Shown piece by piece: positions 11,216 through 58,563 of a stretch of DNA of 64,000 nt. Positions within the stretch are counted from its first letter, which is position 1. Each line of letters starts with the position of its first letter. Origin of the DNA: Acidobacteriota bacterium (GTDB lineage Bacteria > Acidobacteriota > Holophagae > Acanthopleuribacterales > Acanthopleuribacteraceae); contig JAGQSC010000036.1 of the NCBI GenBank assembly GCA_020439745.1, forward strand, positions 62,001 to 126,000, given 5' to 3'. The notes under the pieces are model-generated. The model worked only from the letters and a program-made list of their open reading frames with translations, searched no databases and was not told where the DNA came from. A program made the translations under genes and the position numbers.

Positions 11216-11802
11216 TGAAATACCTCCCGAGCAACGTTCAATGTCTCGTCAATCAACAAACCACCTCTGGGTGTCAAAATCGACTCAGGATGGAACTGAA
11301 CGCCAAAAATAGGCCGCTGGCGATGTTGCAAAGCCATCACAATGCCGTCCTCGGTCGCGGCAATCGCCTCGAGTGGATCGGGCATCTTTTGCGCCGCCAG
11401 CGAGTGGTAGCGTCCCACCAGCATGGGATTGGGGAGTGAACGGAAGATGGATTGTTTTTGGTGCACAATCCGCGATGTCTTGCCGTGAACCACTTGGCCA
11501 GCATATCCAACCTGACCACCAAACGCTTCCACCATTATCTGATGGCCTAAACACACTCCAAAGATGGGCCATTGCGGCGATGATTGACGAACGAGTTCTA
11601 TGCAACAGCCCGCATCCCTCGGGTGTCCCGGACCTGGCGATAGCACCAGCATCTTGGGGCCCGACAAATCCTCCATGCGCTGCAAGATCTCGGCAGTGGG
11701 TACGGAATGGCGCCAAACCTGGACGACACATTGTCGTTTTCTGAATTCGTCGACCAGGTTAAAGGTGAACGAATCGAAATTGTCGATGAACAGGATGTTC
11801 AT
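11212..11802 (-). CDS. trpG: Anthranilate synthase glutamine amidotransferase component
   Basis: The 196-residue class I glutamine amidotransferase releases ammonia for TrpE. The start MNILFIDNFDSFTFNLV is the family signature. The nucleophile Cys lies in FGVCLGHQIMVEAFGG, and the His/Glu pair in GVQFHPES. SPGPGHP marks the oxyanion region. Because trpE and trpG overlap by ATGA and the cluster is otherwise pure trp, I assign tryptophan rather than p-aminobenzoate synthesis, although PabA is very similar and the subunit may serve both. Confidence 0.95.
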   Translation of the reverse strand: MNILFIDNFDSFTFNLVDEFRKRQCVVQVWRHSVPTAEILQRMEDLSGPKMLVLSPGPGHPRDAGCCIELVRQSSPQWPIFGVCLGHQIMVEAFGGQVGYAGQVVHGKTSRIVHQKQSIFRSLPNPMLVGRYHSLAAQKMPDPLEAIAATEDGIVMALQHRQRPIFGVQFHPESILTPRGGLLIDETLNVAREVFQ

Positions 11803-13280
11803 AGCTCACCACCCAACGCACGAATCACGGCCCTTGCCTTCCGCTGTGTTTCTAGAGACTCTTCCTCTGGATCAGAATCAAAAACCACACCGGCTCCGGC
11901 GCGCACATAGGCATAACCATTGCGGACAAAGGCGGATCGAATGGCAATGGCTGTATCCATCTCGCCATCGCTTGTCAAATAGCCAACTGCCCCACCGTAT
12001 GGTCCGCGCTTTGTGCGCTCAAGTTGGCGCAACAGCGAGGCGGCCTTTATTTTAGGGGCACCAACCAGAGTGCCCATGTTCATGCAGGCCACATAGGCAT
12101 GCAATGCATCAAACTCATCCCTCAGTTCGCCTTCCACATAAGACACGAGGTGCATCACATGGGCATAGCGATCAACCGTGAGAATTTTCGGGACAAAACG
12201 CGTGCCGGGCTTGCTGACTCGGGCAATGTCGTTGCGGGCCAAATCAATCAACATCAGGTGTTCGGCCAGCTCCTTTTCGTCCAACCTCAATTCGGCTTCC
12301 AGGCGTGTGTCGAGATCGCGGTCAATGCTTCCATCTGCCGCAAATCCTCGGGGCTTCGTTCCAGCAATTGGGCGGATCTCCACTTTATGCGGGTTACCGG
12401 AAACTTTGACGGCGGTTTCAGGCGATGCGCCCAGCAAGACACCGCTCGGAGTATCAAACACAAACATGTAGGGACTCGGATTGGACTGCCGCAAACGAGC
12501 GTATGCCCCAAGTGGGTCTTCGCATGGCACGGTGTAGGTGCGTGATGGAACGGCCTGGAAAATGTCGCCCGCAATGATGTTTTGCTTGAGTTGACTGACC
12601 CATGACTGGTAGGTGACATCATCCACATCACAAGTGACGGGCTGTACACCAGGAAGCACCGCGTTTCGCGGTCGCATATCGCGCGCCTTTCGGCACGTAT
12701 CTTCAAGGGCACCCAAAAGTTCATAATCTTCCGATTCAGAAGACAGATGATAGATTTGAGTCGCCTGCTTCTGGTGATGGATCTCGATGAAAAGGTCTGG
12801 CAGCACGAAATGGTAGTCAGGGAACGCTAATGCATCGTGTTCGGGGCGAGGTAGGTGCTCGTAGGTGTCGATAAAATCGTAGGCAAAGGTTCCTGCAATG
12901 AGTGTGCGGTCTTCAGTGCCCAGATTCAATGCAGCGCGCAACACCGATATGGGCGACTGGGTCAATAATCGCTGTACCTCCTCGGCATTGGCATCGATTT
13001 CGGGGAAAAAAAGTTCTTGGCCATCAGAGAAGGCGGACAATCGTTCATGAATCGTTGCGGCAATTTGTGTACCGAGTGGATTGTGGCTGCGTATTCGAAC
13101 ACGATTTCCCCGACAGGTCATGTCCAGGCAGGCACGGACCCCAACCAGGCTCATTTCTCCTTGTTTGGTGGTGATATCGGCGGACTCCAGTAGAAAAGTG
13201 CCGGGATGTCTATGGTGCACCAATTCATACAGACTCAAAGGGTCAGGCGCATAGGGGATGTGTCTTTTGGTTAGTTGCAT
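11799..13280 (-). CDS. trpE: Anthranilate synthase component I
   Basis: TrpE makes anthranilate from chorismate. The 493-residue protein has the N-terminal tryptophan-feedback motif FLLESADI, in which LLES binds Trp, so the enzyme is probably feedback inhibited. The C-terminal chorismate-binding domain shows NPSPYMFVF, GASPETAVKV, PIAGTKPRG, the magnesium-binding DLARNDIARV and GAPKIKAA, and ends YVRAGAGVVFDSDPEEE. It is the first structural gene, 16 bp after the attenuator hairpin, with only a weak GGA-type ribosome site. Expression is likely set by the leader at 13296-13418 together with the promoter at 13425-13453. Confidence 0.97.
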   Translation of the reverse strand: MQLTKRHIPYAPDPLSLYELVHHRHPGTFLLESADITTKQGEMSLVGVRACLDMTCRGNRVRIRSHNPLGTQIAATIHERLSAFSDGQELFFPEIDANAEEVQRLLTQSPISVLRAALNLGTEDRTLIAGTFAYDFIDTYEHLPRPEHDALAFPDYHFVLPDLFIEIHHQKQATQIYHLSSESEDYELLGALEDTCRKARDMRPRNAVLPGVQPVTCDVDDVTYQSWVSQLKQNIIAGDIFQAVPSRTYTVPCEDPLGAYARLRQSNPSPYMFVFDTPSGVLLGASPETAVKVSGNPHKVEIRPIAGTKPRGFAADGSIDRDLDTRLEAELRLDEKELAEHLMLIDLARNDIARVSKPGTRFVPKILTVDRYAHVMHLVSYVEGELRDEFDALHAYVACMNMGTLVGAPKIKAASLLRQLERTKRGPYGGAVGYLTSDGEMDTAIAIRSAFVRNGYAYVRAGAGVVFDSDPEEESLETQRKARAVIRALGGEL

Positions 13281-13295
13281 TGTGTATCCAAAATG

Positions 13296-13324
13296 AAAAA
13301 GCCCGCCGTGTAGGCGGGCTTTTT
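13296..13324 (-). terminator. trp attenuator (intrinsic terminator hairpin)
   Basis: On the minus strand a 12-bp stem (AAAAAGCCCGCC paired with GGCGGGCTTTTT) closes a 5-nt loop and ends in a U-run, just before trpE. The first arm, GCCCGCC, can instead pair with GGUGGGC at 13366-13360 inside the leader ORF (7 bp, one G-U), giving an antiterminator. That is the classical region 2:3 versus 3:4 choice of ribosome-mediated attenuation. Confidence 0.88.
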
Positions 13325-13349
13325 CGAGTAATCGTTCGTCGTCCGAGCG

Positions 13350-13418
13350 CTAGACGGAGGCCCACCTGTTACGTTGAGTCTTCCACCACCACTTATGAGT
13401 TACGACGTTGGTCATCAT
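13350..13418 (-). CDS. trpL: trp operon leader peptide with three tandem Trp codons
   Basis: A 22-codon ORF, ATG at 13418 to TAG at 13350, encodes MMTNVVTHKWWWKTQRNRWASV. Trp is at codons 10, 11, 12 and 19, far above chance. The ORF lies between a consensus-like promoter and the attenuator. A ribosome stalled at codons 10-12 leaves region 2 (13366-13360, codons 18-20) free to form the antiterminator; a ribosome reaching the stop covers region 2, so the terminator forms. No ribosome site is visible, and the predicted transcription start is at or next to the first ATG, so the leader may be translated as a leaderless message. Confidence 0.85.
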   Translation of the reverse strand: MMTNVVTHKWWWKTQRNRWASV

Positions 13419-13424
13419 GGGCGC

Positions 13425-13453
13425 AGCATAGTTAGCCCATCGTGGCATGTCAA
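13425..13453 (-). promoter_or_regulatory. Sigma-70-type promoter of the trp operon
   Basis: On the minus strand, TTGACA (13453-13448, perfect -35) is followed after exactly 17 bp by TATGCT (13430-13425, -10). Six bases later comes the trpL ATG at 13418, so initiation 7 nt after the -10 would place the RNA 5' end on the start codon. No clear TrpR-type operator is present. Confidence 0.8.
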
Positions 13454-13513
13454 GCATGATTTTTGTGTCGCCTGCCAGGGGCGGTATGATGGCAACCTGC
13501 TATGGAGGTGGAA

Positions 13514-14155
13514 ATGGAGCCCGTGGCAATCATCGGCGATGTACATGGTTGCATTGATGAATTGGAACACCTTTTAGATCAATTAGATGGCCGACCGGTT
13601 GTGTTTGTGGGAGATTTGATCAACAAGGGACCGGACTCGTTGGCGGTGCTTGAGCGCGTGTTGTCCCTTCAAGCGCGTGCGGTGATCGGCAATCATGAGC
13701 TCGGGTTTTTGTCGTACCTAAAGAGCAAACGCCACCATGTAGATTTCGAGGAAGTTGAACGCCAGTTGGGGATACATTGTGCAAATTGGGCCCGTTGGAT
13801 ACAAGCATTACCCACGTTCATCGAAACGCCAGATTGGTTGGTGGTCCACGCCGGACTGGTACCTGGCCAACACCCAGCTGAATCCGATCCGCGTGTTTTG
13901 ACACGGATCAGGACTTGGGATGGTACGGGGAAACGCCTGAACAATCCCGCGGATCCTCCGTGGTTTGATTTGTATGATGGACAGAAACTGGTCGTATTTG
14001 GACACTGGGCGGTTCGGGGTTTAGTCATGGAAGATCGTGTCATTGGTCTCGATACGGGTTGCGTTTATGGAGGTCAACTTACCGCTGTGCTGTTGCCGGA
14101 ACGCAGGCTGGTGCAGGTGGCGGCAAAACGCGCGTATTGCCCAATCTCATCATGA
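13514..14155 (+). CDS. Metallophosphoesterase, PrpE/ApaH-like (calcineurin type)
   Basis: The 213-residue protein has the dinuclear-metal motifs of calcineurin-like phosphoesterases in order: GDVHG near residue 8, VGDLINKGPDS around 35, GNHE around 63, a His in VVHAG and a C-terminal VFGHW followed by GLDTGCVYGGQLTAV. This set matches symmetrical diadenosine tetraphosphatase and the related protein Ser/Thr phosphatases PrpE and PrpA, so the substrate may be Ap4A or a phosphoprotein. I choose ATG 13514 because GGAGGTGG at 13504-13511 forms its ribosome site; ATG 13502 overlaps that site. The gene is divergent from the trp operon. Confidence 0.9.
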   Translation: MEPVAIIGDVHGCIDELEHLLDQLDGRPVVFVGDLINKGPDSLAVLERVLSLQARAVIGNHELGFLSYLKSKRHHVDFEEVERQLGIHCANWARWIQALPTFIETPDWLVVHAGLVPGQHPAESDPRVLTRIRTWDGTGKRLNNPADPPWFDLYDGQKLVVFGHWAVRGLVMEDRVIGLDTGCVYGGQLTAVLLPERRLVQVAAKRAYCPISS

Positions 14156-14348
14156 CACGCCAATTGTGTTAAACTCACCTCGTTTCCCGCATTGGATCTC
14201 CGTGTGAATGTGCACGGAAACGCCCATCGTTTATGTGATGCCGTTTATTTTGGTTCTGTGCTCGTTTCCACCCGTGCTTCTTGGAATGGAACTTGCCCTG
14301 AAACTGTTTGGGTCGTGGAAACTAAGATCAATACCAAGGAGTGACGAC

Positions 14349-23346: not shown

Positions 23347-24204
23347 CTATGCCGCTCGCAATGTGAGGCTATTCAATCTGCGAATACGTTCGCGGGTGGG
23401 TGGGTGCGAGTCGTGCGGCGTAGGTGTTGATCGGCGCATGTAAGGCGCAAAGATGCGTGCCCAGATGCTGGTGTCTTGTCGTTCAATTTTAGCAAGGGCG
23501 GATGCTAGCCCCATGGGATCTCCTGTCAAGTAGGCTGCGTCCATGTCCGCACGGAACTCACGTGTCCGCGAAAACGCCATCTGCAGTAATTGACTGAAAT
23601 GCGGTGCCGCAATCAACAATGCGATGGCCAGCAGCGAAATGGAGGCCTCACCCGACCACAGAAAGGGGATGTTGAGGAAGAGTAGGATGTAGCCCATCAT
23701 TGACAGCGAATGTGTCAATCGCGAGGTTAGGCCCACCAAAAACATGGCCCGGGTATCGTTGTTGGCGATGTGGCTCACTTCGTGAGCGAGCACGCCCATC
23801 AGTTCTCGTTGATGCATCTGGTTCAATAATCCATGAGTCATGGCAATGGCAGCGCGATTTCGGTCACCTACGGTGAAAGCATTGGCCTGGCCGTTGGGAA
23901 TCAAGAACAACGCGGGCATTCGCTCCAGACCTGCCCTTTGGGCCAGATGCTGGACCATTTGGTAGAGGGCTGGTGCTTCGTGAGGTTGAATATGCCGTGC
24001 ACGGAACATGCGCAACACACTGAATGGGTCGAGCTTTGAAGCAAACAACATCATCACAACGACAGCAGAGCCAATCCACCACACCAGATCAGAGCCAAAC
24101 AGCAGCCATCCCACGCCGACCAACAGAGCCAGCATGGCACCAATCTGGACCAGCGAATGAATGTTGTTGAGGAACCGGTGTTCCCTATAGTGCTCGCGAT
24201 TCAT
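23347..24204 (-). CDS. htpX: Zinc metalloprotease HtpX (M48B)
   Basis: HtpX is an inner-membrane protease that degrades misfolded membrane proteins. The 285-residue product from ATG 24204 (GGGAG site upstream) has two N-terminal membrane helices, the zinc motif AHEVSHIANND and the third-ligand region FSRTREFRADMDAA, with another hydrophobic pair between them. The segment FLIPNGQANAFTVGDRNRAAIA before the active site is also conserved in M48. It lies alone on the minus strand and borders the accessory region starting at 24205. Confidence 0.93.
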   Translation of the reverse strand: MNREHYREHRFLNNIHSLVQIGAMLALLVGVGWLLFGSDLVWWIGSAVVVMMLFASKLDPFSVLRMFRARHIQPHEAPALYQMVQHLAQRAGLERMPALFLIPNGQANAFTVGDRNRAAIAMTHGLLNQMHQRELMGVLAHEVSHIANNDTRAMFLVGLTSRLTHSLSMMGYILLFLNIPFLWSGEASISLLAIALLIAAPHFSQLLQMAFSRTREFRADMDAAYLTGDPMGLASALAKIERQDTSIWARIFAPYMRRSTPTPHDSHPPTRERIRRLNSLTLRAA

Positions 24205-47287: not shown

Positions 47288-47391
47288 GTCAGGCTCCTTT
47301 ATGATCAAATTGTCTGAGGGGGAGACTAGCTAAATCATAACGCCGATCACCCTTGTCAGGTCAAGAAGTGGCGATTTGGGGGTTAACTGAA

Positions 47392-48204
47392 TTAGGCAGC
47401 GGTTCCCTGGACCGATCTACCTTTGATGGCCCATGCACGTGCTTTGAGACTTATCTGACCATGAGCGTTGGGTTGAAGGCGCTGTTTCAGATTTTCAATG
47501 AGGCGTTCACGGCCAGCTTGATCCAGCGAAGCCACATATGCTGGGGCGGGTCCTGTCCCGCCCAGGAATGGTTGCCAGTAATCATCGAAGCTATTGAAGT
47601 TTGTGACTATGGATATGGGCTCACACATCACATCCTTCAATCCGGCTCTGTTGAAAAGGTCGATTAGGGCGCTGCGGCGGCAGAGGGGAAAGCGGGTACC
47701 CTCATCCACGTCATGGGCAGATTCGTCCTCTGACGTGGCTGCATCCCAAAAATGGCGCAGAAACGACATACCCACGCTGTAATCCCAAACACATGCTGAG
47801 ACCATGCCTTGCGTGGCTGTGACGGATCGCATTTGATTGATGGCAGCCAGTGGGTCTGACATGAAATTCAAGGCAAGCAACGAGGATACTCAGTCAAAAC
47901 CGCCCGGGAATCGAGGCAGATTATCGGTTCCCCCAACCACAAACGATTGCCGAGCATCGCTCTGTCTGGCTTGAGCAAAGGCGATGAATGGCGCGGCGGG
48001 GTCACATCCGACCACGGCTTTTGGTTGGGCCACATCACAAATGGCCTGAGTGAGGGCACCGGTGCCGCAACCCACATCTAACCAATTGAGTGCTGGAGGA
48101 AGTTGAAGCCATGACACGAATGCTGGTGCCAGACACCGACTCCAACGACCCATGAACTGCTCGTAGCTGGTACTGGTCTTCCATGAGTCATTGTGTTCGG
48201 GCAT
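47392..48204 (-). pseudogene. Class I SAM-dependent methyltransferase with an in-frame TGA
   Basis: From ATG 48204 (GGAGGAA site) the frame encodes a typical methyltransferase: NWLDVGCGTGALTQAI (SAM-binding glycine loop), VGCDPAAPFIAFA, then FPGGFD, after which TGA at 47892-47890 interrupts. In the same frame it continues VSSLLALNFMSDPLAAINQMRSVT, exactly the expected next motif (FDxVVSxLxLNF), and runs to 47392 without another stop. One base change could have created the stop; the site normally has a small residue. The rest is intact, so it is a young pseudogene, an assembly error or, less likely, a recoded codon. It lies downstream of the cluster ending at 48717, on the same strand. Confidence 0.75.
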
Positions 48205-48440
48205 ATTCAGTTCCTCCAAAGCGATTATCTTGGTCTACCGTCAGTCAGATGCAAAGGTGCATGCACGCTCATTGTAAGTCGAGTCGAGTTTTAGCGCCTA
48301 AAAGGCACGCTCGCTGTGATACACGCAACCGATGGGTGGTGCAAGTTGCCGACCCATTAGAATTCCATAAAGAAATGGTTACAGGCGACAATGATCGCTC
48401 AATCTGCGCTAAAAGGGTTGCTGAACCGGAAGGAGGTTCT

Positions 48441-48716: not shown

Positions 48717-50249
48717 TTAGTGCGGTTCTGGCGCTGCGAGCGCCAGGACCTTGACACCACCCCGTACGCGATTGGATGCTACCGCATCCGACAAGGCGCG
48801 TTTTTGTGGGTGATAATCAATGTGTTTCACGGACAAAGGCTTCAGTTGTCCTTGGTTTCGAGCCTGTGCATAGTATGGGTTGTCGCTTAAGAGTAGGTCC
48901 AAATGATGGCCGATGTCGGGATGAGTTGGCGACCCTAGCAATAGCCTGTAATGGGGTGGGTCAAGAACGGGCGCCAAGACTGACCGGTCATCTAAGCCTG
49001 CTTTGCGCATGGCGTCCGCCACAAACGCCTCATTTAGTTTCTCGCCAACCAAGTCTGACGTGTGGTCTGTTTTGCCGTTGAAGCGAATGGACGGAGTTTG
49101 ACCGAGAAAACCTGTGACGCGTACTTGATCGAACATCCGGTAACGATAAAGGCCTCCACGCGTGGTGATGATCAAGGAATACGCCTTATCCTCTTCCAAT
49201 TGGTGTGCGAGGAAGACCTGATCTTTTTCATCCATGAACTCAAAGAAGGCACCAAACAGAGCGAGCGGCCAACACCCTTGAAAGGGTAGAGATACGCAGG
49301 CTTCGGTGGCCAAAATGCCCTTGGGTACCAACCTGGATTTTGGGAACAGTGTGTGCAAGTGTTCGGCAGCTCCGCGAGCGTGCCCATCGGCCCAGCAGGA
49401 AATATGCGCCAATTGAGGCCAGATCCTCTGGGGTTGATTAGGATCCCGTTGGCCCAAGCGTTTGGCAGCCGCCATGTTTTTGACTCGAACCGAGCGGCCA
49501 TGCACGTGGTACGTTTTCCCCTCCCGCAAGATCATCATCAAATGATCCCATTGACTGACCATGGCTTCGCACAATTGTGAGAAAAAGCTGGGGTGCCACA
49601 CACTGACTAGGGAAAGTTGGTGAGCCTGTAATAGGTGGAGCAATGTGAGTTCTTGGAAATCGGAGCCCGCATGCTGGATCCATGATGGCACGGGCCATAT
49701 CCTCTGTATGAATGGGCGCAGCCAACCGCCGTAGGCGGCATCATCCTCAAATCCTAAAGGGACGGCCGACGCAATATCCGGCATCGTGATGGCTGGCGAG
49801 ATCGACCAATATGCAGGTCCTGCCATGACCTCTGGCTGCTGAGTAAAGATATCGGCCATCCACAAATTTGCCAGTGTCTTGAAGCTGGCGAGCTGGGATT
49901 TGGTCATCGGAATCCATTTGACGGCGTTCGTGCTACCGGACGTAGGTACGAGTCGTGTCACGTCGTCGCGCGTAAGCACGCGGCGATTGCCGGTGCGAAT
50001 CCGGTCGATGGCACCAACATAGTCATCATATTGTGTAAGCGGCACCGAACGCTGATAGTCATCGACACTCTTGATTCTTTCGAATCCATGTTGCTTGCCA
50101 AAGTCTGTTTGGCAATTCGCCTGCACAATTTCAAAGAGTAATTTGGCTTGAACCTTTTTTGGCCGTAACAAGTCGCGTTCAAACGTCCTTTGCTGGCGTT
50201 GTCCAAGCCATCGCCAGGCTCGATTGATCCATCTGCAAGTCTGCGTCAT
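48717..50249 (-). CDS. GH3-family acyl-adenylating enzyme
   Basis: The 510-residue product starts at ATG 50249, overlapping the previous stop (ATGA). It is GH3-like (plant-type acyl acid-amido synthetase superfamily): LVPTSGSTNAVKWIPMTKSQL is the ATP-phosphate loop, LGFEDDAAYGGWL and RGGLYRYRMFDQVRVTGFLG hold the acyl/AMP contacts, and FNGKTDHTSDLVGEKLNEAFV is the conserved C-terminal hinge (Asp-Leu-x-Gly-Glu-Lys). GH3 proteins activate carboxylic acids as acyl-AMP and couple them to amines. As the last gene of the nine-gene cluster it probably tailors an acid made by the others. Confidence 0.92.
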   Translation of the reverse strand: MTQTCRWINRAWRWLGQRQQRTFERDLLRPKKVQAKLLFEIVQANCQTDFGKQHGFERIKSVDDYQRSVPLTQYDDYVGAIDRIRTGNRRVLTRDDVTRLVPTSGSTNAVKWIPMTKSQLASFKTLANLWMADIFTQQPEVMAGPAYWSISPAITMPDIASAVPLGFEDDAAYGGWLRPFIQRIWPVPSWIQHAGSDFQELTLLHLLQAHQLSLVSVWHPSFFSQLCEAMVSQWDHLMMILREGKTYHVHGRSVRVKNMAAAKRLGQRDPNQPQRIWPQLAHISCWADGHARGAAEHLHTLFPKSRLVPKGILATEACVSLPFQGCWPLALFGAFFEFMDEKDQVFLAHQLEEDKAYSLIITTRGGLYRYRMFDQVRVTGFLGQTPSIRFNGKTDHTSDLVGEKLNEAFVADAMRKAGLDDRSVLAPVLDPPHYRLLLGSPTHPDIGHHLDLLLSDNPYYAQARNQGQLKPLSVKHIDYHPQKRALSDAVASNRVRGGVKVLALAAPEPH

Positions 50250-50947
50250 GACTGGTGCGTGAAGAGGGGCGATCGACCAAAGACCATGCGATGCCCTGCG
50301 GGCGTCAGATTGTCTATGGAAATTTGTGTCAGACACACAAGTTCGTCTCCAAGGTAGTGTTTCGGATTGACGGTCTCGAAAAAACGAACAAAGGGGTCTC
50401 GAGCTAATCGCGCTGGAACATCGCGCAAATGGGTACGCAACACCTGCGGATTGTCAAATACGACCAAGCCAGTGTTGGGATCGTATTTTCTGCCAAACAA
50501 CTCAAGCGCAAGAGCTGCGGATTTGTCTTTCAGAAATGGCGATTCCTGCTCTGGGTGGGGATAGAATCGTTGCCAAAATGTGGGCAGAAATCGATAGGTT
50601 CGGATACCTGACGAGATCAACAACCAGTAAAGTGAAGTGTTATCCGTATGCAGGTTCAGTACGGACTTGATCCAGCATCGCGCCATGGCAGAGCTGTTCC
50701 ATACGCTGGGGTCCATAATCGTGTCACCTGAATAGATAAAGGCGGAGGTGTGTTCCTGGCGATACAGCATGGTAGAAAATCCCACCAGTTTTCCCTTGTC
50801 TTCAATCAACAGTGCGCCAGTCTTAGCATCCAGGTCGCTCTTAAACTTGTGTGGTGACACGCCGTCAAAATGGCTGCACATGAGCTTGTACATGTTATTG
50901 ACTTGGGCAGACGACAGTTCATTGATCTTGAGGAAGTGTCCAATCAC
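50246..50947 (-). CDS. GNAT-like protein, second of two
   Basis: The 233-residue protein has an N-terminal acyltransferase-like segment: an EDKGKLVGFSTMLY strand pair and SGDTIMDPSVWNSSAMARCWI, reminiscent of GNAT motifs A and B, though the CoA-binding R/Q-x-x-G-x-G/A loop is not clear. The middle segment ISSGIRTYRFLPTFWQRFYP and the C-terminus (VCLTQISIDNLTP) are not assigned. It overlaps the upstream 357-residue gene by 4 bp. Weak family call; acyl transfer is consistent with the cluster. Confidence 0.55.
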   Translation of the reverse strand: MIGHFLKINELSSAQVNNMYKLMCSHFDGVSPHKFKSDLDAKTGALLIEDKGKLVGFSTMLYRQEHTSAFIYSGDTIMDPSVWNSSAMARCWIKSVLNLHTDNTSLYWLLISSGIRTYRFLPTFWQRFYPHPEQESPFLKDKSAALALELFGRKYDPNTGLVVFDNPQVLRTHLRDVPARLARDPFVRFFETVNPKHYLGDELVCLTQISIDNLTPAGHRMVFGRSPLFTHQS

Positions 50948-52017
50948 AGGGTTGCGACCTCCAAATGAACAAGTCCGCTAGCAGGCGGATTAGCTGAGGG
51001 CTCGTAGGCCACTGTGTAAATGTGGCTTTCAATCGTCCGAGCATGAAGACGCTTGGCGGCTACCTGTGCCAACGCTCTTCGTGCGTCCAATCCCAAGACC
51101 AGGTATTGCAGTCCCTTGCGACGGGCAATTGCTTTCAGACGGCTAATCATTTCCATGAACACATCCTCGTTTTCGTCTTGAACGGCTAAAAGGGATACGT
51201 ACCCCAGATTCAGTTGTCTACCTGCTGATGGCAATGTGGGCTTTCCCGCGACCGTTAAGCCGAGGTTGATAAACCCACGAAAACGAGCGACCAAAGGCGC
51301 ATAGCCTGTCACGGTCGTTTGCTTAAAGGCTCGTTGGTCCCACACTGCACCCGTGGCCACAGGAACGCCGCCATCTTCGATCATGGTGCAAGATTCTGCA
51401 TCCACGCCTTTCAGTAGGTGACTGCCAAAATCAGACTCCTGCCAGGCAGGTGCAAAGTCAAAACGGCGATTGGTCTGATTAATGAAGCTTATGAACCTGG
51501 GTAATTCCTCAGGCTGGAGTTTGGCTCCTTTGCATCGGCTTTTTCCTGTGGTCATGACGAAGGTTTTGAATGGAGCAACAGCTCGGTATTTTGGCAGATG
51601 AGACAGGTTTCTTTCCAATAGGCGACGTGCTTCGCGATTGTCGCTGAGGATGGATGTGATGTCGTAAGGCAGCTCTTGGGCCTGGTGATCGTCACGGCAA
51701 GCCCTAAATCCTGCGGCTAGGGGTTTTATGCGTCCCTTGAGGCAACCATGCACACGCAGACTGCCCAAGTATCCCAAGGCGCACACTTCTCCGTCGACCC
51801 AAACCGGTCGGACCGATCTGCAACACATGCCGATCACTTCGTGGCGTTCATTTTTGGCCACGAAAACGCTGTTTCGGACGCCCTCCACGCTCAAGGCATC
51901 GAAAAACGAGGGTCGGCGCTCAAGTGCCAATGAGATTCTGCCTTTCATGGCCTTGTCCGACTGCAGGGCGCAAATGGCTGCGTTGTCGTCGGCATTTGCC
52001 GATTCAACCTGCCACAT
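50944..52017 (-). CDS. GNAT-superfamily protein, first of two
   Basis: The 357-residue product from ATG 52017 (AAGGAG 7 bp upstream) resembles a duplicated GNAT fold. The first half shows VFVAKNERHEVIGMCCRSV and ALGYLGSLRVHGCLKGRIKPL, the motif A area with a Leu-Arg-Val-x6-Gly CoA loop; the second half has a second acyltransferase-like core (LGYVSLLAVQDENEDVFMEMI, GLQYLVLGLDARRALAQVA). GNATs acylate amines or hydroxyls. It overlaps the radical SAM stop by 14 bp. Confidence 0.65.
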   Translation of the reverse strand: MWQVESANADDNAAICALQSDKAMKGRISLALERRPSFFDALSVEGVRNSVFVAKNERHEVIGMCCRSVRPVWVDGEVCALGYLGSLRVHGCLKGRIKPLAAGFRACRDDHQAQELPYDITSILSDNREARRLLERNLSHLPKYRAVAPFKTFVMTTGKSRCKGAKLQPEELPRFISFINQTNRRFDFAPAWQESDFGSHLLKGVDAESCTMIEDGGVPVATGAVWDQRAFKQTTVTGYAPLVARFRGFINLGLTVAGKPTLPSAGRQLNLGYVSLLAVQDENEDVFMEMISRLKAIARRKGLQYLVLGLDARRALAQVAAKRLHARTIESHIYTVAYEPSANPPASGLVHLEVATL

Positions 52018-53395
52018 GCACCAACTCCTTGGCCATGTCACTTTTGAGGATGGTCCCTTGCCAGTTCATGTCGCCCATGGGTAGCCCATTTCGCCCAGAT
52101 ATATCCCGTTGGTGCATCCAATTGATCATGAAGTAATTGAATAACATACGTGGGTTTTGCCATTGGACGCGATGTTTGCATCGCTGCAGTATGCTCGGCC
52201 AGCTGTAGAAATTCGTCCGCGCCTCAACGCATAAATGCGCGAGTTCTTCGCGCGACATCTGAGCCGGTTCAAAGGGGATGTCGTTGTAGCGATAGCGATC
52301 ATCAAGCCACCAGGCATCGTACAAAAGACGGCGTTCTTCGACCATGCGCCGGTAAAGAGGGGTACCGGGAAATGGCGTAATGTGGTTGAACGCGGCGATG
52401 AACAGGCCCTGCTGCCGTGCGAAACACACAGTTTCTTCGATCGAAGAACGGCTATCACCGTCGTAGCCGAAGACGAAGGTACCGTATACGCGAAGACCCG
52501 CTTTTCGGAGGTTCTCAAGTGCCGTGGCAGCACCGCCCTGCATGAGATTGAAACCCTTATGCATGGTCTTAAGGGTGGCAGGATTCAACGACTCCAATCC
52601 CACCAACACGCCTTGGCAGCCGGATTCGCGCATCAATTGAAGTGCTTCGTGATCGTGCGCCACATGAATGGCGGTTTGGCTAACCCATCGGATACCCAAC
52701 GGCCGAATGGCCCGCATGAATTCCTTAGCTGCCTCCAGGTTGCAGGTCATGTTGTCGTCAATAAAGAAGATGAGTCGTTTGGGTGAGATGGCGCGGATTT
52801 CAGCCACTACTTGGTCTATGGGTCGATGTTGATGTTGCGACTGATGAAAGCTCATGACCGCACAGAAGTCACAACGGAATCGACAACCTCGAGCGAATTC
52901 GATTAGATGTAACGGCAAATATTTCTTGTCGCGGTAGATGGCTCGATCTGGAATTATGTGGGGTGTGGAACCCATTGCTCGGTAGAGCGGTTTCGCTGTG
53001 CTATGTCGGTAGTCGTCCACCAGTTCCGCAAACACAGATTCAGCCTCTCCCAAAACCAGCGTTTCACAATACTGCCGAACCTCGTCGGGGCAAAGTGTAG
53101 CGTGATAACCACCCATAACCACGGGGACACCGCGGACGCGGTAACTAGAGGCAATCTGATAGGCGCGTTTCGCGGTGTAGGTCTCCACAGAGATGCAAAC
53201 AAGGTCTGTGGGTTGGTCGAATGGAATGGATTCCAGGCGGTCGTCATAGAACCGGGCCGATACGTCGCCGGGTAAGAGAGCGGCCAGGGTGGCTACTGGT
53301 AGGGGCTCCATTAGCCAGGTACGAATGTAGGCTGTCATGCCCAAGTGACGGCCTACGCAAGGGTGGATAAAGGTTACGCGGAAAGGTTTGGCCAT
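52004..53395 (-). CDS. B12-binding radical SAM protein, second of two
   Basis: The 463-residue protein has an N-terminal cobalamin-binding-like Rossmann domain (PVVMGGYHATLCPDEVRQY), then the radical SAM core with CRFRCDFC (C-x3-C-x2-C, the 4Fe-4S site), FFIDDNMTCNL and GVLVGLESLNPATLKTMHKG. Such enzymes methylate unreactive carbons or build rings in natural-product and lipid pathways. It overlaps the first radical SAM gene by 22 bp, with a GGAGC ribosome site. Substrate unknown. Confidence 0.92.
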   Translation of the reverse strand: MAKPFRVTFIHPCVGRHLGMTAYIRTWLMEPLPVATLAALLPGDVSARFYDDRLESIPFDQPTDLVCISVETYTAKRAYQIASSYRVRGVPVVMGGYHATLCPDEVRQYCETLVLGEAESVFAELVDDYRHSTAKPLYRAMGSTPHIIPDRAIYRDKKYLPLHLIEFARGCRFRCDFCAVMSFHQSQHQHRPIDQVVAEIRAISPKRLIFFIDDNMTCNLEAAKEFMRAIRPLGIRWVSQTAIHVAHDHEALQLMRESGCQGVLVGLESLNPATLKTMHKGFNLMQGGAATALENLRKAGLRVYGTFVFGYDGDSRSSIEETVCFARQQGLFIAAFNHITPFPGTPLYRRMVEERRLLYDAWWLDDRYRYNDIPFEPAQMSREELAHLCVEARTNFYSWPSILQRCKHRVQWQNPRMLFNYFMINWMHQRDISGRNGLPMGDMNWQGTILKSDMAKELVHVAG

Positions 53396-54720
53396 GGCAG
53401 CTCCGGCGGAATCATTGCATCACAGGTGTAATATCGATTTAGGTGATACCCGTAGTGGCGGTAGGCGAGATTCGTGGCAAGTGATGTGAAAAAGGGCGCA
53501 GCCGTGTGACGAATCCTCCTAGCAAGGTTTGGGATTGAATAGGCCATTCGCCAAGCGAACTCCGTGCCTTGCTGTAGGGTTTGGACAGACATGTTCGCTG
53601 GCTGGAAAACAACGTGCTGGCCGTCGTATTGCGACCAGTCTCGGTGGAGGATACGACCGTCACTGTCGAGATCCTGGAATAGACGAGTACCGGGGAATGG
53701 CGTCAAAACGGCGAATCGAGGGAGGTCAATGGCTAGGTCCACACAGAGTTGGGCGGTCTTCTTGAAGACATCCTCGGTATCGGAGTCCAAGCCGAAGACA
53801 AAACAGGCTTGAAGCGAAATTCTGTGACGGTGCAAAGCTTCCACCACTTCGCGGTAGGCCTCTGGCCGATTGAATGATTTGCCAGTACGTCGCAAAGCGG
53901 TTGCCGAAATCGACTCAAAACCCATCAACAGTCCCCGACAGCCAGATCGAGCCGCTAATGCGAGTAGTGCCCGGTCTTGACAAAGCAGAGTTGTAGCGAG
54001 ACCGTACCAATGCAGGCGGAGGGGTATGAGTGCTTCAAATAATGAGGCAGCGTAATCGCGGTCCGCGATCAGGTTGAGATCCACGAAAATGGCCCGCCGT
54101 GCGCGGTTTCGTTTCAAATCGTCCACCACCACAGCGACGGGCTTTTGAAATGGTTTGCGGCCCCAAGCGTGAGGGACCACACAGAAGTGGCAATTATGGA
54201 TGCATGCGCGCGTGGCTTCATAAACCTGGTGGGTCAGAAATCGGCTTTTGGGCAGTACAGATCGATCCGGAAGTGGGTATCCGCTCAGTGTGAATGCCGC
54301 AGCCTGTTCATACCGACACTTGAGTTCGCCAGTGGCGAAATCGCGAAGTAGCTGTGGCCAGGATTCTTCGGCATACCCCGTAACTATGGCGTCTGCATGG
54401 GGTTGGGCATCGTCGGGCACAAGCGTTACGTGGGGTCCCCCCAGCACCACGGGGACGCCTTGCCTTCGAAATTGGGCTGAAAGTTCGTAACAACGTGAGG
54501 CCGTGCCCGTGATTACGGTCATACCTATCAGGTCCGCCTCCAGGTGTTGCGGAATCTCTTGGATGCCTTCGTCAAGACAAACCACGTCGGCGTTCAGTTC
54601 GGCGGGAACCAACGCTGCTAAGGTGGGTAGTGTCAACGGCATGTAGCGCAGAGATTTCTTAAAGATTCCCTTGCGATGGCGGTATAGCGGGCCCTTAGGT
54701 GAGATCAGTACAATCTTCAT
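53374..54720 (-). CDS. B12-binding radical SAM protein, first of two
   Basis: The 448-residue protein is a paralogue-like partner of the next gene: VPVVLGGPHVTLVPDDAQPH (cobalamin-type domain), ATRACIHNCHFCVVPHAW (C-x3-C-x2-C) and GLLMGFESISATALRRTGKS. It differs in the residues after the cluster-binding cysteines and in most of the C-terminus, so it probably has its own step. The start is ATG 54720 with AAGGAAG upstream; it overlaps the previous fusion gene by 26 bp. Confidence 0.92.
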   Translation of the reverse strand: MKIVLISPKGPLYRHRKGIFKKSLRYMPLTLPTLAALVPAELNADVVCLDEGIQEIPQHLEADLIGMTVITGTASRCYELSAQFRRQGVPVVLGGPHVTLVPDDAQPHADAIVTGYAEESWPQLLRDFATGELKCRYEQAAAFTLSGYPLPDRSVLPKSRFLTHQVYEATRACIHNCHFCVVPHAWGRKPFQKPVAVVVDDLKRNRARRAIFVDLNLIADRDYAASLFEALIPLRLHWYGLATTLLCQDRALLALAARSGCRGLLMGFESISATALRRTGKSFNRPEAYREVVEALHRHRISLQACFVFGLDSDTEDVFKKTAQLCVDLAIDLPRFAVLTPFPGTRLFQDLDSDGRILHRDWSQYDGQHVVFQPANMSVQTLQQGTEFAWRMAYSIPNLARRIRHTAAPFFTSLATNLAYRHYGYHLNRYYTCDAMIPPELPWPNLSA

Positions 54721-56119
54721 GAAAGACTTCCTTTTCGATCTCTATAGGTTGCGGCCGTTGGTATTTGGCGATGCTATTCAGGAATGGTTTGAGGGTTCGC
54801 ACCGTTTTCTTGTCCGGAAATGAAAGCGCTTGAGCCTGGGCGCGGGCCAATGCCTCCAACGCGTTGTGTTGGAATGGGAAATACCATGCCACGAAATGAG
54901 GGTTGTCCAGGCACTGTTGCCAAGTGTTGGGTGGCTCCGAGAAACTGACCCAGACCGATCTTGGAATGTTGATCAGTCCTTGATGCAAATCGTCTTCGAG
55001 GTCACGCGCTACTGAACACCAGCCAAGAGCAGTAACCAAGTCGGACCAATCTGCGGAGCGACTTTGACATCCACTAAATATTAAGAGTAACTCCAGGCTT
55101 AGGCTGAAGGTAGTCGTCACGTGGCTCGCCAGGTCTTCTAGATCCCATGTCTGCCGATTCACTCGTCTGTGGTAGTCACGGGACATCGTGTAAATGAGTG
55201 ATCCAAACGAGGCACGAGCTTCGTCGGGACGGTCGAGCATTTCGCATGCTTGATACACCATCGAAGCGAGAAAAGAGAGGTTGTCGTTCTCGAAAGTGCC
55301 TGAACCCCATTGCTTTTCCAAGGACATAACCACGTCCAGTGGATTTACTGCAGGCCAGTCACCATCCACCAAATCGTCTACCCACTGAATGCAGCAATAG
55401 CCATAGCGGGCCAGACGGCTGCCCTTCCATGAAATGAGACTTTGCAATGTCAAGACGAGCCAAATAAAGGCATAGCGCCTATGGCGGCGTGCGAATCGAG
55501 CCTGAGCACGGTGACACACCATCTCAGCTCGGAGATGGTGCCAAAAGAGGTCCTGCATGGCGGGGCGGAACACGGCGAAATGGGTGACGACTGCTAGTAA
55601 CGCGCCAGCTGCAATATCAAAAAGATGATGTTGGTGTGTGAAAAGGGCGGCGAGTGAAACGCCGACGGCCCAGATGAGGACAAACCAGCGCCATCTGCGA
55701 TAGGCCTGAACCAGGGCAAATGCGATGCCCATGGCGAAGGAAACGTGAAGCGACGGGATCAGGTTATAGGTCAGGTTGAGCAAGTCGGCAATTCGAAATA
55801 GGGCGTCATGGGTCACAGGTGACGAATAGGCGACGTGATAGGGCCATGCTAGAAAGCAACATCCTGCAATGAGCACTTGCAGCGCGAGCGTTAGAGCCAG
55901 GGCGCGCAGGTACCTGTGCGGCATGCGCCAGGCAATCCAGGCAAATACCGGAAGAATACTGAGGTAGATCCAGGCTGCTTGAGGAAAGAACGGAATCCCC
56001 AACTCCCAGTTGAAGTGGGGCACTACTTCGGCTCTGCCGTCTGCGAACGTGTCGGATGCCATATAGACCAAACCGAACCAGAATGCGAAGGCCATCACGA
56101 TTCGCCAACGGCTAGACAT
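54695..56119 (-). CDS. Fusion of a PAP2-type phosphatase and a squalene/phytoene-synthase-like domain
   Basis: The 474-residue product begins with about five membrane helices carrying PAP2_3-type motifs: IPSLHVSFAMG at 121-131 and HQHHLFDIAAG at 162-172. After a basic linker (204-218), the C-terminal half resembles trans-isoprenyl (squalene/phytoene) synthases: YGYCCIQWVDDLVDGDW has the first Asp motif, DDLVD, at 248-252, and VARDLEDDLHQGLINIP has the second, D373-D377, matching the RDxxED...GR-IYLP motif. A phosphatase and a diphosphate-condensing domain in one chain is striking. GGAGGGGG precedes the ATG. It overlaps the desaturase by 8 bp. Confidence 0.78.
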   Translation of the reverse strand: MSSRWRIVMAFAFWFGLVYMASDTFADGRAEVVPHFNWELGIPFFPQAAWIYLSILPVFAWIAWRMPHRYLRALALTLALQVLIAGCCFLAWPYHVAYSSPVTHDALFRIADLLNLTYNLIPSLHVSFAMGIAFALVQAYRRWRWFVLIWAVGVSLAALFTHQHHLFDIAAGALLAVVTHFAVFRPAMQDLFWHHLRAEMVCHRAQARFARRHRRYAFIWLVLTLQSLISWKGSRLARYGYCCIQWVDDLVDGDWPAVNPLDVVMSLEKQWGSGTFENDNLSFLASMVYQACEMLDRPDEARASFGSLIYTMSRDYHRRVNRQTWDLEDLASHVTTTFSLSLELLLIFSGCQSRSADWSDLVTALGWCSVARDLEDDLHQGLINIPRSVWVSFSEPPNTWQQCLDNPHFVAWYFPFQHNALEALARAQAQALSFPDKKTVRTLKPFLNSIAKYQRPQPIEIEKEVFHEDCTDLT

Positions 56120-57035
56120 GTTCCCCCTCCGGAAAGGGCCGAGGACCTCGCCACATGGAAAGGTAAATGCTCAAGAAGGACGGATCTTTGGTTTGGTCAC
56201 CTACGAATTTGGGGAGGTGAATCCAACTTAGGTCCGGTTGTTGATGATGTACGCGGTGATAGTGGTAGTTGAGATACATCCAACGGATAAGTGGTTGGAT
56301 GCGCAGATTCCAAGCGCCGTTCCGCACGTCCAATGGGCTGAATGCATGATCTGCATACTGTAATGAACTCCAGAAGACGGCAAAACAAGCGTAACAAGCC
56401 ATCCATGCCACGTAGTTGAAACCGGTCAACCACAACAACGTCGTTTGAACACTCAACGCAATGATCAGATCGGCTCTCAGAGTCCAGAGGCTGATGCGAT
56501 CAAGGCCAGAGAACATCGCCTGGGCACTGGTTTGCTTGCCGCTTAGGGTTTGGGTAAACATAGGGAGCCGCGTTAACCCGGGCCAGATCGCAATTAAGAC
56601 GGCACCCAGCGCGACGAAGACCCAGTAGAATCCCGTAAGAATGCAATACCATTGTGCTCGTTTTAACCAGGCCTTTTCTCCGGGACGGATGTAGTCGAAT
56701 TGTTCGACCTCTGTACGGTTGCGGGCGTGGTGCCCCAAATGGAACACGCGCTGCATAGCGAAGCCGGTCGGAAAGAAGGCCGCAAAAAGGCGCCCCCAAG
56801 CATCATTGCGGGACCGTTGCGGATGGAAGTTGCCGTGGACACTTTCGTGGAGCATGGAAAACAGGGTGTTGTTGGTCAAGCCGAAAGCCGTTGCAGGCAA
56901 GAGGATCCACCAACCTGACACTTGGGCGGTGAGCCAAATCCAGAATGCACACAGAAGCAGAACCAGCGCACCCAGAAACAGATTGAGCCTTCTGGGTATG
57001 GGGTGATTTTCCATGCTGGTCCCGAGATCGGTCAC
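56112..57035 (-). CDS. Membrane fatty acid desaturase-type enzyme
   Basis: The 307-residue membrane protein has the three His boxes of the diiron desaturase/hydroxylase superfamily: HESVHG, HLGHHAR and HYHRVHHQQP, between pairs of membrane helices. It could desaturate, hydroxylate or oxygenate a lipid or carotenoid-like chain. I choose GTG 57035, which overlaps the NTF2-like stop (GTGA) and has AAAAGGA 8 bp upstream; ATG 57014 is an alternative. The closest superfamily relatives by motif spacing are fatty-acid and beta-carotene-type enzymes, which cannot be told apart here. Confidence 0.9.
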   Translation of the reverse strand: MTDLGTSMENHPIPRRLNLFLGALVLLLCAFWIWLTAQVSGWWILLPATAFGLTNNTLFSMLHESVHGNFHPQRSRNDAWGRLFAAFFPTGFAMQRVFHLGHHARNRTEVEQFDYIRPGEKAWLKRAQWYCILTGFYWVFVALGAVLIAIWPGLTRLPMFTQTLSGKQTSAQAMFSGLDRISLWTLRADLIIALSVQTTLLWLTGFNYVAWMACYACFAVFWSSLQYADHAFSPLDVRNGAWNLRIQPLIRWMYLNYHYHRVHHQQPDLSWIHLPKFVGDQTKDPSFLSIYLSMWRGPRPFPEGEHV

Positions 57036-57646
57036 TGCTTGCGTCCTTTTCCAATGAAGAACCCGATCATGCCGCCAATAAGCAGGGCAATGCCGGTCAC
57101 GCCAAAACCCAGTTTTGGAAGCATCTCTTTGTAGGAGTCCAAAATGGGGTTGTTGAAGATATTGGCGGAATAGTGGAATGCGCTGATCTTCCATTCATCG
57201 CCTTGCTTCACGATGACACAAGTCCAGCGACCTTGGATCTCGAACGTTTCGCCATTGTTGAGTACGTATGAGTCCTTGGAATAGCCGTAAGCCATACCCG
57301 TCGTCTCAGAGTAGAGGCGCGTGAGTGCATCAGCTTCGAAAGACACTTTTAGATCTTTAACGATCGCGTTGGGCCCGGAGAGCATTTTGTGGAAGTAGGC
57401 CTTGATCTCTTCGGCACCCTTGCAGACATCACTGTTCATCGTCGTGAACACCACGTCGTCGGTCACGTGTTGCGCCAATGTATCCAGATCGCGATCATTG
57501 AGCGCTTGGGCCATGGTTCGTTTCAAGGCACGTAAAGCTTCGTGCACCTCGTCTTCGACATTGACAGCTTGAATGGATTCAGATTCGGGGACAGGTGATT
57601 CGTCAACCTGCAGCATAAGCAATGCGATACAAACAGAAATCATCAT
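57032..57646 (-). CDS. SnoaL/NTF2-like protein with a C-terminal membrane anchor
   Basis: The 204-residue product has a short hydrophobic N-terminus (MMISVCIALLMLQ), an NTF2/DUF4440-like alpha+beta domain (about 32-155: ALKRTMAQALNDRDLDTLAQHV, DDVVFTTMNSDVCKGAEEI, WTCVIVKQGDEWKISAFHYS), and a membrane helix (GFGVTGIALLIGGMIGFFIG) followed by a basic tail KGRKQ. SnoaL-like proteins are often cyclases or isomerases in natural-product pathways, or scaffold domains. The ATG overlaps the Rieske gene by 4 bp and the stop overlaps the desaturase start. Confidence 0.8.
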   Translation of the reverse strand: MMISVCIALLMLQVDESPVPESESIQAVNVEDEVHEALRALKRTMAQALNDRDLDTLAQHVTDDVVFTTMNSDVCKGAEEIKAYFHKMLSGPNAIVKDLKVSFEADALTRLYSETTGMAYGYSKDSYVLNNGETFEIQGRWTCVIVKQGDEWKISAFHYSANIFNNPILDSYKEMLPKLGFGVTGIALLIGGMIGFFIGKGRKQ

Positions 57647-58563
57647 ATGGCAACCTCTTTGGATTCAATGAATGGTAAGTGAAACAAGAAATCGAGAAAC
57701 CTGCGCAAGGTTTCGTCTTTTTCGTTTAGTTGGTCCGTCCGAAAGCGAATTCCGTCTAGGATTTGGATGTCTTTGCGCAGAAATGATTGAAAAAGATATT
57801 TGGCAATGCGCACAGCCCACCAGGCTCTAAGGCCGTTGCCCTCGATCCCATAAAAGGGCTGAAGACTCACGCCTGTCTCGGTGGGCCGAAAGCCCATCAT
57901 CATACAGGTCTTATAGCGGCCGATAACAGTCTCGGCGATCAAAGTGGTGCCACCGTGACACGCCATGTAGATGTGGATCTCGTTTCCTGAAAGCCATGCC
58001 ATCATGCGATCGGACCAATTCCCTCCGCAAACATGGGAGGTGTAAGAAATGCTGTACGTCCAGGGGTTCAGAATCTGGATCGTGGGTTCTTTTGTGAGTT
58101 GACGTTGGTGAATCGTTTCCAGGTGACTCATGTCGAAAGCGTTGACCAAGGGCACATACCAAGGTACTTCAAAATGAATGGACTTACCGGGTACGAAACG
58201 TCGCGGGCGATCACTGCGAAACTGAGGGGGTCCGTGCGTCGGACTGTCGCCTAAGTAGGCAAACAACATGTCGTACATGACTGAAGACTGAACGGTTGGA
58301 TGACACGATGCGTCTATGACCTTATGGTGAAGTGGGCATCTGAGGCCGTCCTTGACGACGGTTCCGTGTTTCAGATGTACACCCATGTGTGGACAGTGTC
58401 CGTTTACCACCACCGGCAGAGATTCGTTGGATCGGTACCAGGCTAGGCTTCGCTGTGGAAAATCAAAATGGCGCACTTCACCGGGCGCCATTCGACTTGG
58501 CCCCAAGAGATACCAGGACTGAGGACACTCAGGGAGCGCAGGCGTCAGGTGTCGTCTTTTCAA
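57643..58563 (-). CDS. Rieske non-heme iron oxygenase
   Basis: From TTG 58563, with AGGAGG 7 bp upstream, the product is 306 residues. The Rieske site is C57-P-H59 and C76-x2-H79 (CPHMG and CPLHH), followed by the catalytic iron site D144-x2-H147-x4-H152 in FDMSHLETIHQ, the exact spacing of known Rieske oxygenases. The size suits the KshA/cholesterol-7-desaturase-type single-component terminal oxygenases of hydrophobic polycyclic or steroid-like substrates. First gene of the cluster; a TTG start may keep it low. No reductase partner gene is in the window. Confidence 0.9.
   Translation of the reverse strand: MKRRHLTPALPECPQSWYLLGPSRMAPGEVRHFDFPQRSLAWYRSNESLPVVVNGHCPHMGVHLKHGTVVKDGLRCPLHHKVIDASCHPTVQSSVMYDMLFAYLGDSPTHGPPQFRSDRPRRFVPGKSIHFEVPWYVPLVNAFDMSHLETIHQRQLTKEPTIQILNPWTYSISYTSHVCGGNWSDRMMAWLSGNEIHIYMACHGGTTLIAETVIGRYKTCMMMGFRPTETGVSLQPFYGIEGNGLRAWWAVRIAKYLFQSFLRKDIQILDGIRFRTDQLNEKDETLRRFLDFLFHLPFIESKEVAI

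Follow-up and report, generated by a model that had tools for sequence, protein, structure and literature searches.

OlsH, a bacterial GH3 enzyme of the ornithine-lipid pathway of Singulisphaera acidiphila, makes N-acyl-ornithine and works alongside the alpha/beta-hydrolase acyltransferase OlsI (PMC12493201), and the bacterial membrane-spanning lipid synthase, Mss, joins two fatty acid chains to each other (PMC11868695). Here we analysed a 64,000-nucleotide stretch of DNA (the window) on one contig (C17) of a 5.1-Mb Acidobacteriota assembly (G000), and focused on an operon of nine co-directional minus-strand genes at 58563-48717. The genes encode, in this order, a Rieske oxygenase, an NTF2-like protein, a membrane desaturase, a fusion of a PAP2 domain with a squalene/phytoene-synthase-like (SQS-like) domain, two B12-binding radical SAM enzymes (R1 and R2, also rSAM1 and rSAM2), two GNAT proteins (G1 and G2) and a GH3 enzyme. 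We estimate a probability of roughly 0.6 that the operon is a member of a widespread, horizontally spread system that makes an amide-linked, radically modified envelope lipid. Every enzyme superfamily in the cluster is already known, and any novelty lies in the pathway as a whole. A reading made from the sequence only had been aware of no described pathway with this gene set, and we likewise found none among 5.39 million open-access papers, most subscription journals being outside the reach of the search.

The operon resembles the OlsH/OlsI system in that its GH3 would be expected to convert a free acid into a fatty amide and is encoded together with an acyltransferase, a GNAT here and an alpha/beta hydrolase there. 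However, R1-R2-G1 have no counterpart in that system, and the window operon contains neither an alpha/beta-hydrolase O-acyltransferase of the OlsI type nor an OlsG-type N-methyltransferase. The plant GH3 enzymes AtGH3.15 and JAR1 belong to the same superfamily and share the conserved nucleotide-motif residues, while the window GH3 represents a distant subfamily set within a radical SAM/GNAT operon. The ladderane radical SAM family (TIGR04072), HpnJ and HpnR also combine B12-binding and radical SAM domains in a lipid context, but neither hopanoid genes nor genes for polyketide-type fatty acids are recurrent neighbours of the clusters studied here. Against the TIGR04072 cut-off of 360 bits, R2 scored 70.7 and R1 50.5, so the ladderane-type analogy drawn in the sequence-only reading did not hold. 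The scores against HpnJ, HpnR and BchE (cut-offs 578, 650 and 481 bits) were 102, 48 and 89 for R2 and 57, 42 and 67 for R1, and HpnD was matched at 13 bits against 279. A sphingolipid-like product, considered for the combination of an IPC-synthase-type PAP2, a desaturase and a GNAT, was set aside, with no serine palmitoyltransferase recurring in the clusters. By its described function, rather than by sequence comparison, Mss is a possible working analogy for R1/R2.

Conservation of the operon in a sister species

The nine-gene minus-strand operon is real and far beyond chance: a sister species has the whole set in unchanged order, and a core of it recurs in 12 phyla. In the sister species (G366, same genus), the nine genes keep the same order and orientation with 48-76% amino-acid identity, and the flanks of the cluster differ from those in the window on both sides. 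The genes thus form one co-inherited functional unit dominated by enzymes of lipid type, in support of the coordinated pathway proposed in the sequence-only reading. That reading had named the loss of gene order in every relative as an outcome that would speak against it; the order is kept in the sister species and the core across phyla, and the proposal survived. Among 396 Acidobacteriota genomes, six besides the window's own carry close rSAM2 relatives (49-77%), and the neighbourhoods of these contain rSAM1, both GNAT genes and GH3 together with varying subsets of the other genes. A cluster-type GH3 was found in 14 of the 396, including all 7 with a close rSAM2. The PAP2-SQS fusion was rejected as a phylum-wide marker, since among the matches the sister species alone had the whole fusion and the remainder were lone PAP2 or SQS domains.

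A five-gene core across twelve phyla

We scanned an rSAM2 alignment against GTDB r220 with one genome per species, which gave at least 524 relatives, and kept the best 80 loci. As these loci were picked by rSAM2 alone, their neighbouring genes are informative. The 80 loci fall in 12 phylum-level groups and reveal a core of R1, R2, G1, G2 and GH3: in the 35 loci whose flanks extend 8 kb or more in each direction, R1 was present in 34, GH3 in 32, G1 in 30, G2 in 28 and all five genes in 25. The core genes are also adjacent on the same strand, with R1-R2 in 68 of 77 loci, R2-G1 in 62, G2-GH3 in 54 and G1-G2 in 37. In wider counts on 87 loci, made with profiles rebuilt from the cluster proteins, G1 was found in 77 and the complete core in 53, and the desaturase, NTF2 and PAP2 genes in 41, 39 and 36, respectively. 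The distance matrices of the core proteins correlate with one another (r 0.64-0.85; 0.85 for G2-GH3 and 0.76 for R1-R2), and the correlation of the desaturase with the core is weak (r 0.21-0.40). Outside this core, the desaturase, the PAP2 and NTF2 proteins and the Rieske oxygenase count as accessory.

On the rSAM2 tree, the window and two further loci (L082 and L083) fall in a supported clade (98/96) that consists mainly of Planctomycetota and Pseudomonadota. The Acidobacteriota are scattered over the tree, forcing at least five changes, which is consistent with horizontal transfer. Named isolates with the cluster include Budvicia aquatica DSM 5075 and Leminorella grimontii ATCC 33999, both type strains, as well as Halomonas campaniensis, Malikia spinosa, Sulfitobacter algicola and Neoroseomonas oryzicola. 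The cluster was also found on a mobilisable, IncF-type plasmid of a Citrobacter portucalensis gull isolate (NZ_CP134684.1, 10349-22453; L162), in the order G2-GH3-R1-R2-G1-R3-R4-PAP2-NTF2 with a fifth radical SAM gene and a desaturase, R3 and R4 being a second radical SAM pair. Neither 5,426 complete E. coli genomes nor other plasmids yielded a close copy of the Citrobacter cluster, leaving this single plasmid record.

Modules and neighbouring genes

Adjacency suggests that the clusters are assembled from blocks: R1-R2-G1; G2-GH3; R3-R4-MEM1, where MEM1 is a 222-aa membrane protein; the Rieske gene with NTF2 and an alpha/beta-hydrolase-like gene, the last of which is present in 13 of the 87 clusters; desaturase-PAP2-NTF2; and an AurF-like diiron protein with a hexapeptide protein. 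The G2-GH3 block occurs without R1/R2 in two loci (L169 and L175). The SQS-like domain is rare, being found in 4 of 87 loci, all four of them Rieske-type clusters; L088 has the PAP2 and SQS-like domains on two neighbouring genes, L118 has them fused as in the window, and the host genome encodes another SQS/PSY protein at a different site, a strong match at 171.7 bits. This makes the SQS part an addition specific to the lineage, found only in Rieske-type clusters. The sequence-only reading had placed isoprenoid or diphosphate condensation at the centre of the pathway, a claim not supported here, because the rarity of the SQS-like domain and the separate host gene put isoprenoid chemistry outside the R1-R2-G1-G2-GH3 core.

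Fatty-acid-hydroxylase-type enzymes are among the cluster neighbours, and an MMPL/RND-type exporter with a sterol-sensing-like domain adjoins the cluster in six loci (L146 and the gammaproteobacterial L140, L144, L147, L155 and L157, mostly Woeseiaceae), making it a candidate exporter of the product. Two side observations concern GH3 genes. Another GH3 cluster, seen in L170 (G009:C26, 5873-13817) and L171 (G339:C77), combines GH3, a hexapeptide protein and an FA_hydroxylase-type enzyme without R1/R2, with Rieske and G2 added in L170, and may be a cousin pathway. In L118, the same GH3 gene and flank seem to be present twice (273-1931 and 12562-14220) on a 16.8-kb contig, apparently through duplication or an assembly repeat.

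Rieske oxygenase and R3/R4 exclude each other

AcsF and BchE are the oxygen-dependent and radical SAM enzymes for one step of chlorophyll synthesis. A comparable pattern emerged for the Rieske oxygenase and the R3/R4 pair: in the 87 neighbourhoods, R3/R4 was present in 35 and Rieske in 19, with no locus having both (p 1e-5). Since neighbourhoods may be truncated, we repeated the comparison on whole genomes. Three of seven Acidobacteriota genomes have the R3/R4 pair and the other four a cluster-type Rieske, and 50 further genomes (Rieske called at 130 bits or more) gave R3/R4 in 22, Rieske in 16 and both in none. Pooled over these 57 core-carrying genomes, Rieske occurred in 20 and R3/R4 in 25, never together (Fisher p=2e-7, a value inflated by relatedness), and each trait changes 9-10 times on the rSAM2 tree. 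From this exclusivity we infer one step with two ALTERNATIVES, for which the oxygen-dependent Rieske enzyme and the radical SAM pair would be alternatives. The likeness to BchE/AcsF is that a single pathway uses either radical SAM or oxygen-dependent enzymes and never both, and of the NCBIfam models BchE fits the two Budvicia R3/R4 proteins best, at 92-97 bits against a cut-off of 481. In contrast to that case, the substrate is another one, the alternative here is a Rieske oxygenase, and a shared step is a proposal drawn from the distribution.

Gene features, catalytic motifs and folds

The coordinates and order of the nine genes agree with the sequence-only reading (Table 1), and Pfam upheld its Rieske, DUF4440/SnoaL, FA_desaturase, PAP2 plus SQS_PSY, B12-binding/radical SAM (two genes) and GH3 calls. 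From gene 1 to gene 9, the overlaps are 4, 4, 8, 26, 22, 38, 4 and 4 bp, with GTG 57035 as the desaturase start; the range of 4 to 26 bp given earlier thus fits every junction except R2-G1, where the overlap is 38 bp if the first GTG is taken as the G1 start. The GTG at 57035 mirrors the GTGA overlap seen in the sister species, and the alternative desaturase start would leave a 17-bp gap at the NTF2-desaturase junction. Gene 1 starts with TTG and has a perfect AGGAGG upstream at 58576-58571. A promoter and terminator scan gave signals not above shuffled sequences. The GC content of the cluster equals that of the window (53.1% versus 52.8%), giving no sign of recent import.

Table 1. Genes of the operon, with window coordinates
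Gene	Product	Coordinates	Strand	Support and remarks
1	Rieske non-haem iron oxygenase (RO)	57643..58563	-	Pfam Rieske 35 bits; orthologue in L038, 59%
2	NTF2/SnoaL-like protein	57032..57646	-	Pfam DUF4440/SnoaL_3; L038 68%
3	Membrane fatty-acid desaturase/hydroxylase	56112..57035	-	Pfam FA_desaturase 87.9 bits; GTG start likely, ATG 57014 possible
4	PAP2 phosphatase/phosphotransferase + squalene/phytoene-synthase-like fusion	54695..56119	-	Pfam PAP2 and SQS_PSY
5	B12-binding radical SAM R1 (rSAM1)	53374..54720	-	Pfam B12-binding 41.8, Radical_SAM 36.4
6	B12-binding radical SAM R2 (rSAM2)	52004..53395	-	Pfam; query of the cross-phylum scan
7	G1, tandem GNAT with N-myristoyltransferase-like fold, putative long-chain N-acyltransferase	50944..52041	-	AlphaFold + Foldseek
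8	G2, divergent GNAT with C-terminal extension, GH3 partner	50246..50947	-	AlphaFold + Foldseek
9	GH3-family acyl-acid amido synthetase	48717..50249	-	Pfam GH3 135.3 bits (cut-off 23.6); ATG start 50249

Judged by their conserved motifs, most of the operon enzymes should be active. In the Rieske oxygenase, the C-x-H and C-x-x-H residues of the cluster and the D-x2-H-x4-H iron site are invariant in 15/15 homologues, and the key histidines of the three desaturase boxes in 27/27. The NTF2-like protein has, as read by eye, a signal-like N-terminus and a C-terminal membrane segment. In the fusion protein, the PAP2 domain (about residues 50-185) has PSLH in 23/23 homologues and a nearly invariant H-x-H-H-x2-D. 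Its SQS-like domain (about 240-440) scores 24.9 bits against SQS_PSY, just under the 26-bit cut-off, versus 30.9 bits in the homologous L118 fusion, and has both Asp-rich motifs intact, DDxxD (DDLVD) and RDxxxDxxxGLxNxP (RDLEDDLHQGLINIP), with the Asp residues present in 4/4. The CxxxCxxC motif is invariant in 66/66 R1 and 71/71 R2 homologues, and both proteins are above cut-off for the B12-binding and radical SAM domains, R2 barely so for the former (32.6 versus 32.1). The GH3 profile matched plant GH3 structures at E 2.4e-39, and the nucleotide-motif residues (TSGST-type, T-E, the R-Y and D of GLYRYRxxD, and GEK) are conserved in an alignment of 52 cluster GH3s, with T-E, R-Y, D and GEK in 52/52.

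The two GNAT-like proteins named in the sequence-only reading had no Pfam match within the window, and it was structure models, built from alignments of 42 (G1) and 38 (G2) cluster homologues, that bore them out, gene 7 confidently as a tandem GNAT and gene 8 as a divergent one. The G1 AlphaFold model (pLDDT 94.4) consists of two GNAT folds in the arrangement of N-myristoyltransferases (NMTs), which are its closest solved structures by Foldseek (E ~2e-13, TM 0.59-0.65); the tandem GNAT MAB_4324 gave a similar score. The likeness to NMTs is one of architecture, at about 10% identity and in a bacterial protein, and a protein substrate is not implied. The G1 sequence profile reached E ~0.4 at best against NMT chains, with only weak GNAT/NMT matches, and did not place G1 in the NMT family. 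The G2 model (pLDDT 94.3) matched GNATs at E ~3e-5 and TM 0.40 over about 145 aligned residues, and a sequence-profile search of the PDB with G2 returned no match.

Three further observations were made in the window. Directly downstream of the operon, a SAM-dependent methyltransferase-like frame (47390-48219, minus strand) contains one in-frame TGA at 47892-47890 and is apparently a disrupted gene, unless the stop reflects an error in sequencing. A tryptophan operon lies at 6864-13280, with trpC and trpF apparently fused (8827-10218). The only tRNA called by ARAGORN in the window, Thr (CGT) at 23743-23844 on the plus strand, has an unusual length of 102 nt, falls where the opposite strand carries a protein-coding gene and is possibly a false positive.

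A proposed pathway

From gene content and motifs, we infer a substrate, a product and an order of steps as follows. G1 would acylate an amine with a long chain taken from acyl-CoA or acyl-ACP. R1 and R2, B12-binding radical SAM enzymes probably acting as a pair, would carry out radical chemistry on unactivated carbons of the acyl chain, such as methylation or the formation of a C-C bond or ring. A second oxidation would be conducted by the Rieske oxygenase in the window and by the B12-type pair R3/R4 in other hosts, and the membrane desaturase may add an unsaturation or a hydroxyl. The PAP2 domain is predicted to act on a phosphate headgroup by removal or transfer, and the tail-anchored NTF2-like protein would work alongside it. 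GH3 would adenylate a free carboxylate and join it to an amine, with G2 acylating a partner. In the lineage of the window, a further building block, a dephosphorylated prenyl alcohol, probably comes from the SQS-like domain that is fused to PAP2.

Weighing the alternatives

The lipid assignment follows from the desaturase, PAP2, the NMT-like GNAT, the fatty-acid-hydroxylase-type neighbours and, in some copies, the MMPL exporter, and the amide from GH3 together with the GNATs, with OlsH as precedent (PMC12493201). Several points weigh against the envelope-lipid pathway proposed above. Because the radical SAM and GNAT families are broad, the word lipid rests on the neighbouring genes, and a modelled NMT-like fold of G1 would be no proof of a long-chain donor. 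GH3 and GNAT enzymes also use small soluble acids and amines. Metagenome-assembled genomes are the source of most loci, but the cluster is also present in named isolates and on a complete plasmid. Tree-aware comparison of Rieske and R3/R4 left about 4-6 informative pairs, all opposite (0 same), with a borderline median p of 0.06-0.13, and the two systems could act on different steps, tracking aerobic or anaerobic life. The most serious competitor, unlikely in our judgement yet credible, is a small secreted specialised metabolite, for instance an antimicrobial amide or a signalling N-acyl amino acid, instead of a structural membrane lipid. The patchy spread and transfer of the cluster (the Citrobacter plasmid and the five or more changes among Acidobacteriota) are common in specialised metabolism, amide formation is typical of GH3 and GNAT enzymes, and the accessory oxygenases vary between hosts. 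However, a hydrophobic product of the envelope is favoured by the membrane desaturase, PAP2, the NTF2 protein with its membrane anchor, the fatty-acid-hydroxylase-type enzymes and the MMPL exporter, and the neighbours include no recurrent gene dedicated to resistance or regulation.

That the operon is a variant of the GH3-dependent ornithine-lipid pathway is improbable. OlsH is the sole NCBIfam match of the window GH3 and makes an N-acyl amino acid with an alpha/beta-hydrolase acyltransferase, and an alpha/beta-hydrolase-like gene is present in the 13 clusters counted above, but the window GH3 scores 64.9 bits against the 620-bit cut-off of the OlsH model (NF052613), the Budvicia GH3 has no OlsH match at 1e-10, and the differences in gene content, with R1-R2-G1 lacking a counterpart, argue against it. 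We give still less weight to the idea that the nine genes belong to separate known isoprenoid, fatty acid and amide pathways that merely share an operon: the partial independence of the sub-modules, seen in G2-GH3 without R1/R2 and in the weakly correlated desaturase, fits it, while core adjacency across 12 phyla and the retention of all nine genes in the sister species, where the flanks changed, largely refute it. A variant of a carotenoid, hopanoid or ladderane pathway is very nearly discounted; the SQS/PSY-like domain and the HpnJ-, BchE- and ladderane-like radical SAM scores speak for it, but those scores and that of HpnD fall far below the curated cut-offs, and the SQS-like domain is confined to four loci in addition to the separate host gene. 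Beyond the envelope-lipid reading itself, we advance tentatively, at somewhat less than even odds, a more specific proposal: one undescribed lipid pathway in at least 12 phyla and on a mobilisable plasmid that makes a lipid class not yet seen, an amide-linked chain remodelled by radical SAM enzymes, with interchangeable Rieske and R3/R4 forms as a second natural case of the BchE/AcsF kind. The switch between the Rieske oxygenase and a radical SAM pair would then be an example of one pathway adapting to oxygen. A core kept across twelve phyla, with no product found in the open-access literature, would mean an overlooked envelope molecule of many bacteria.

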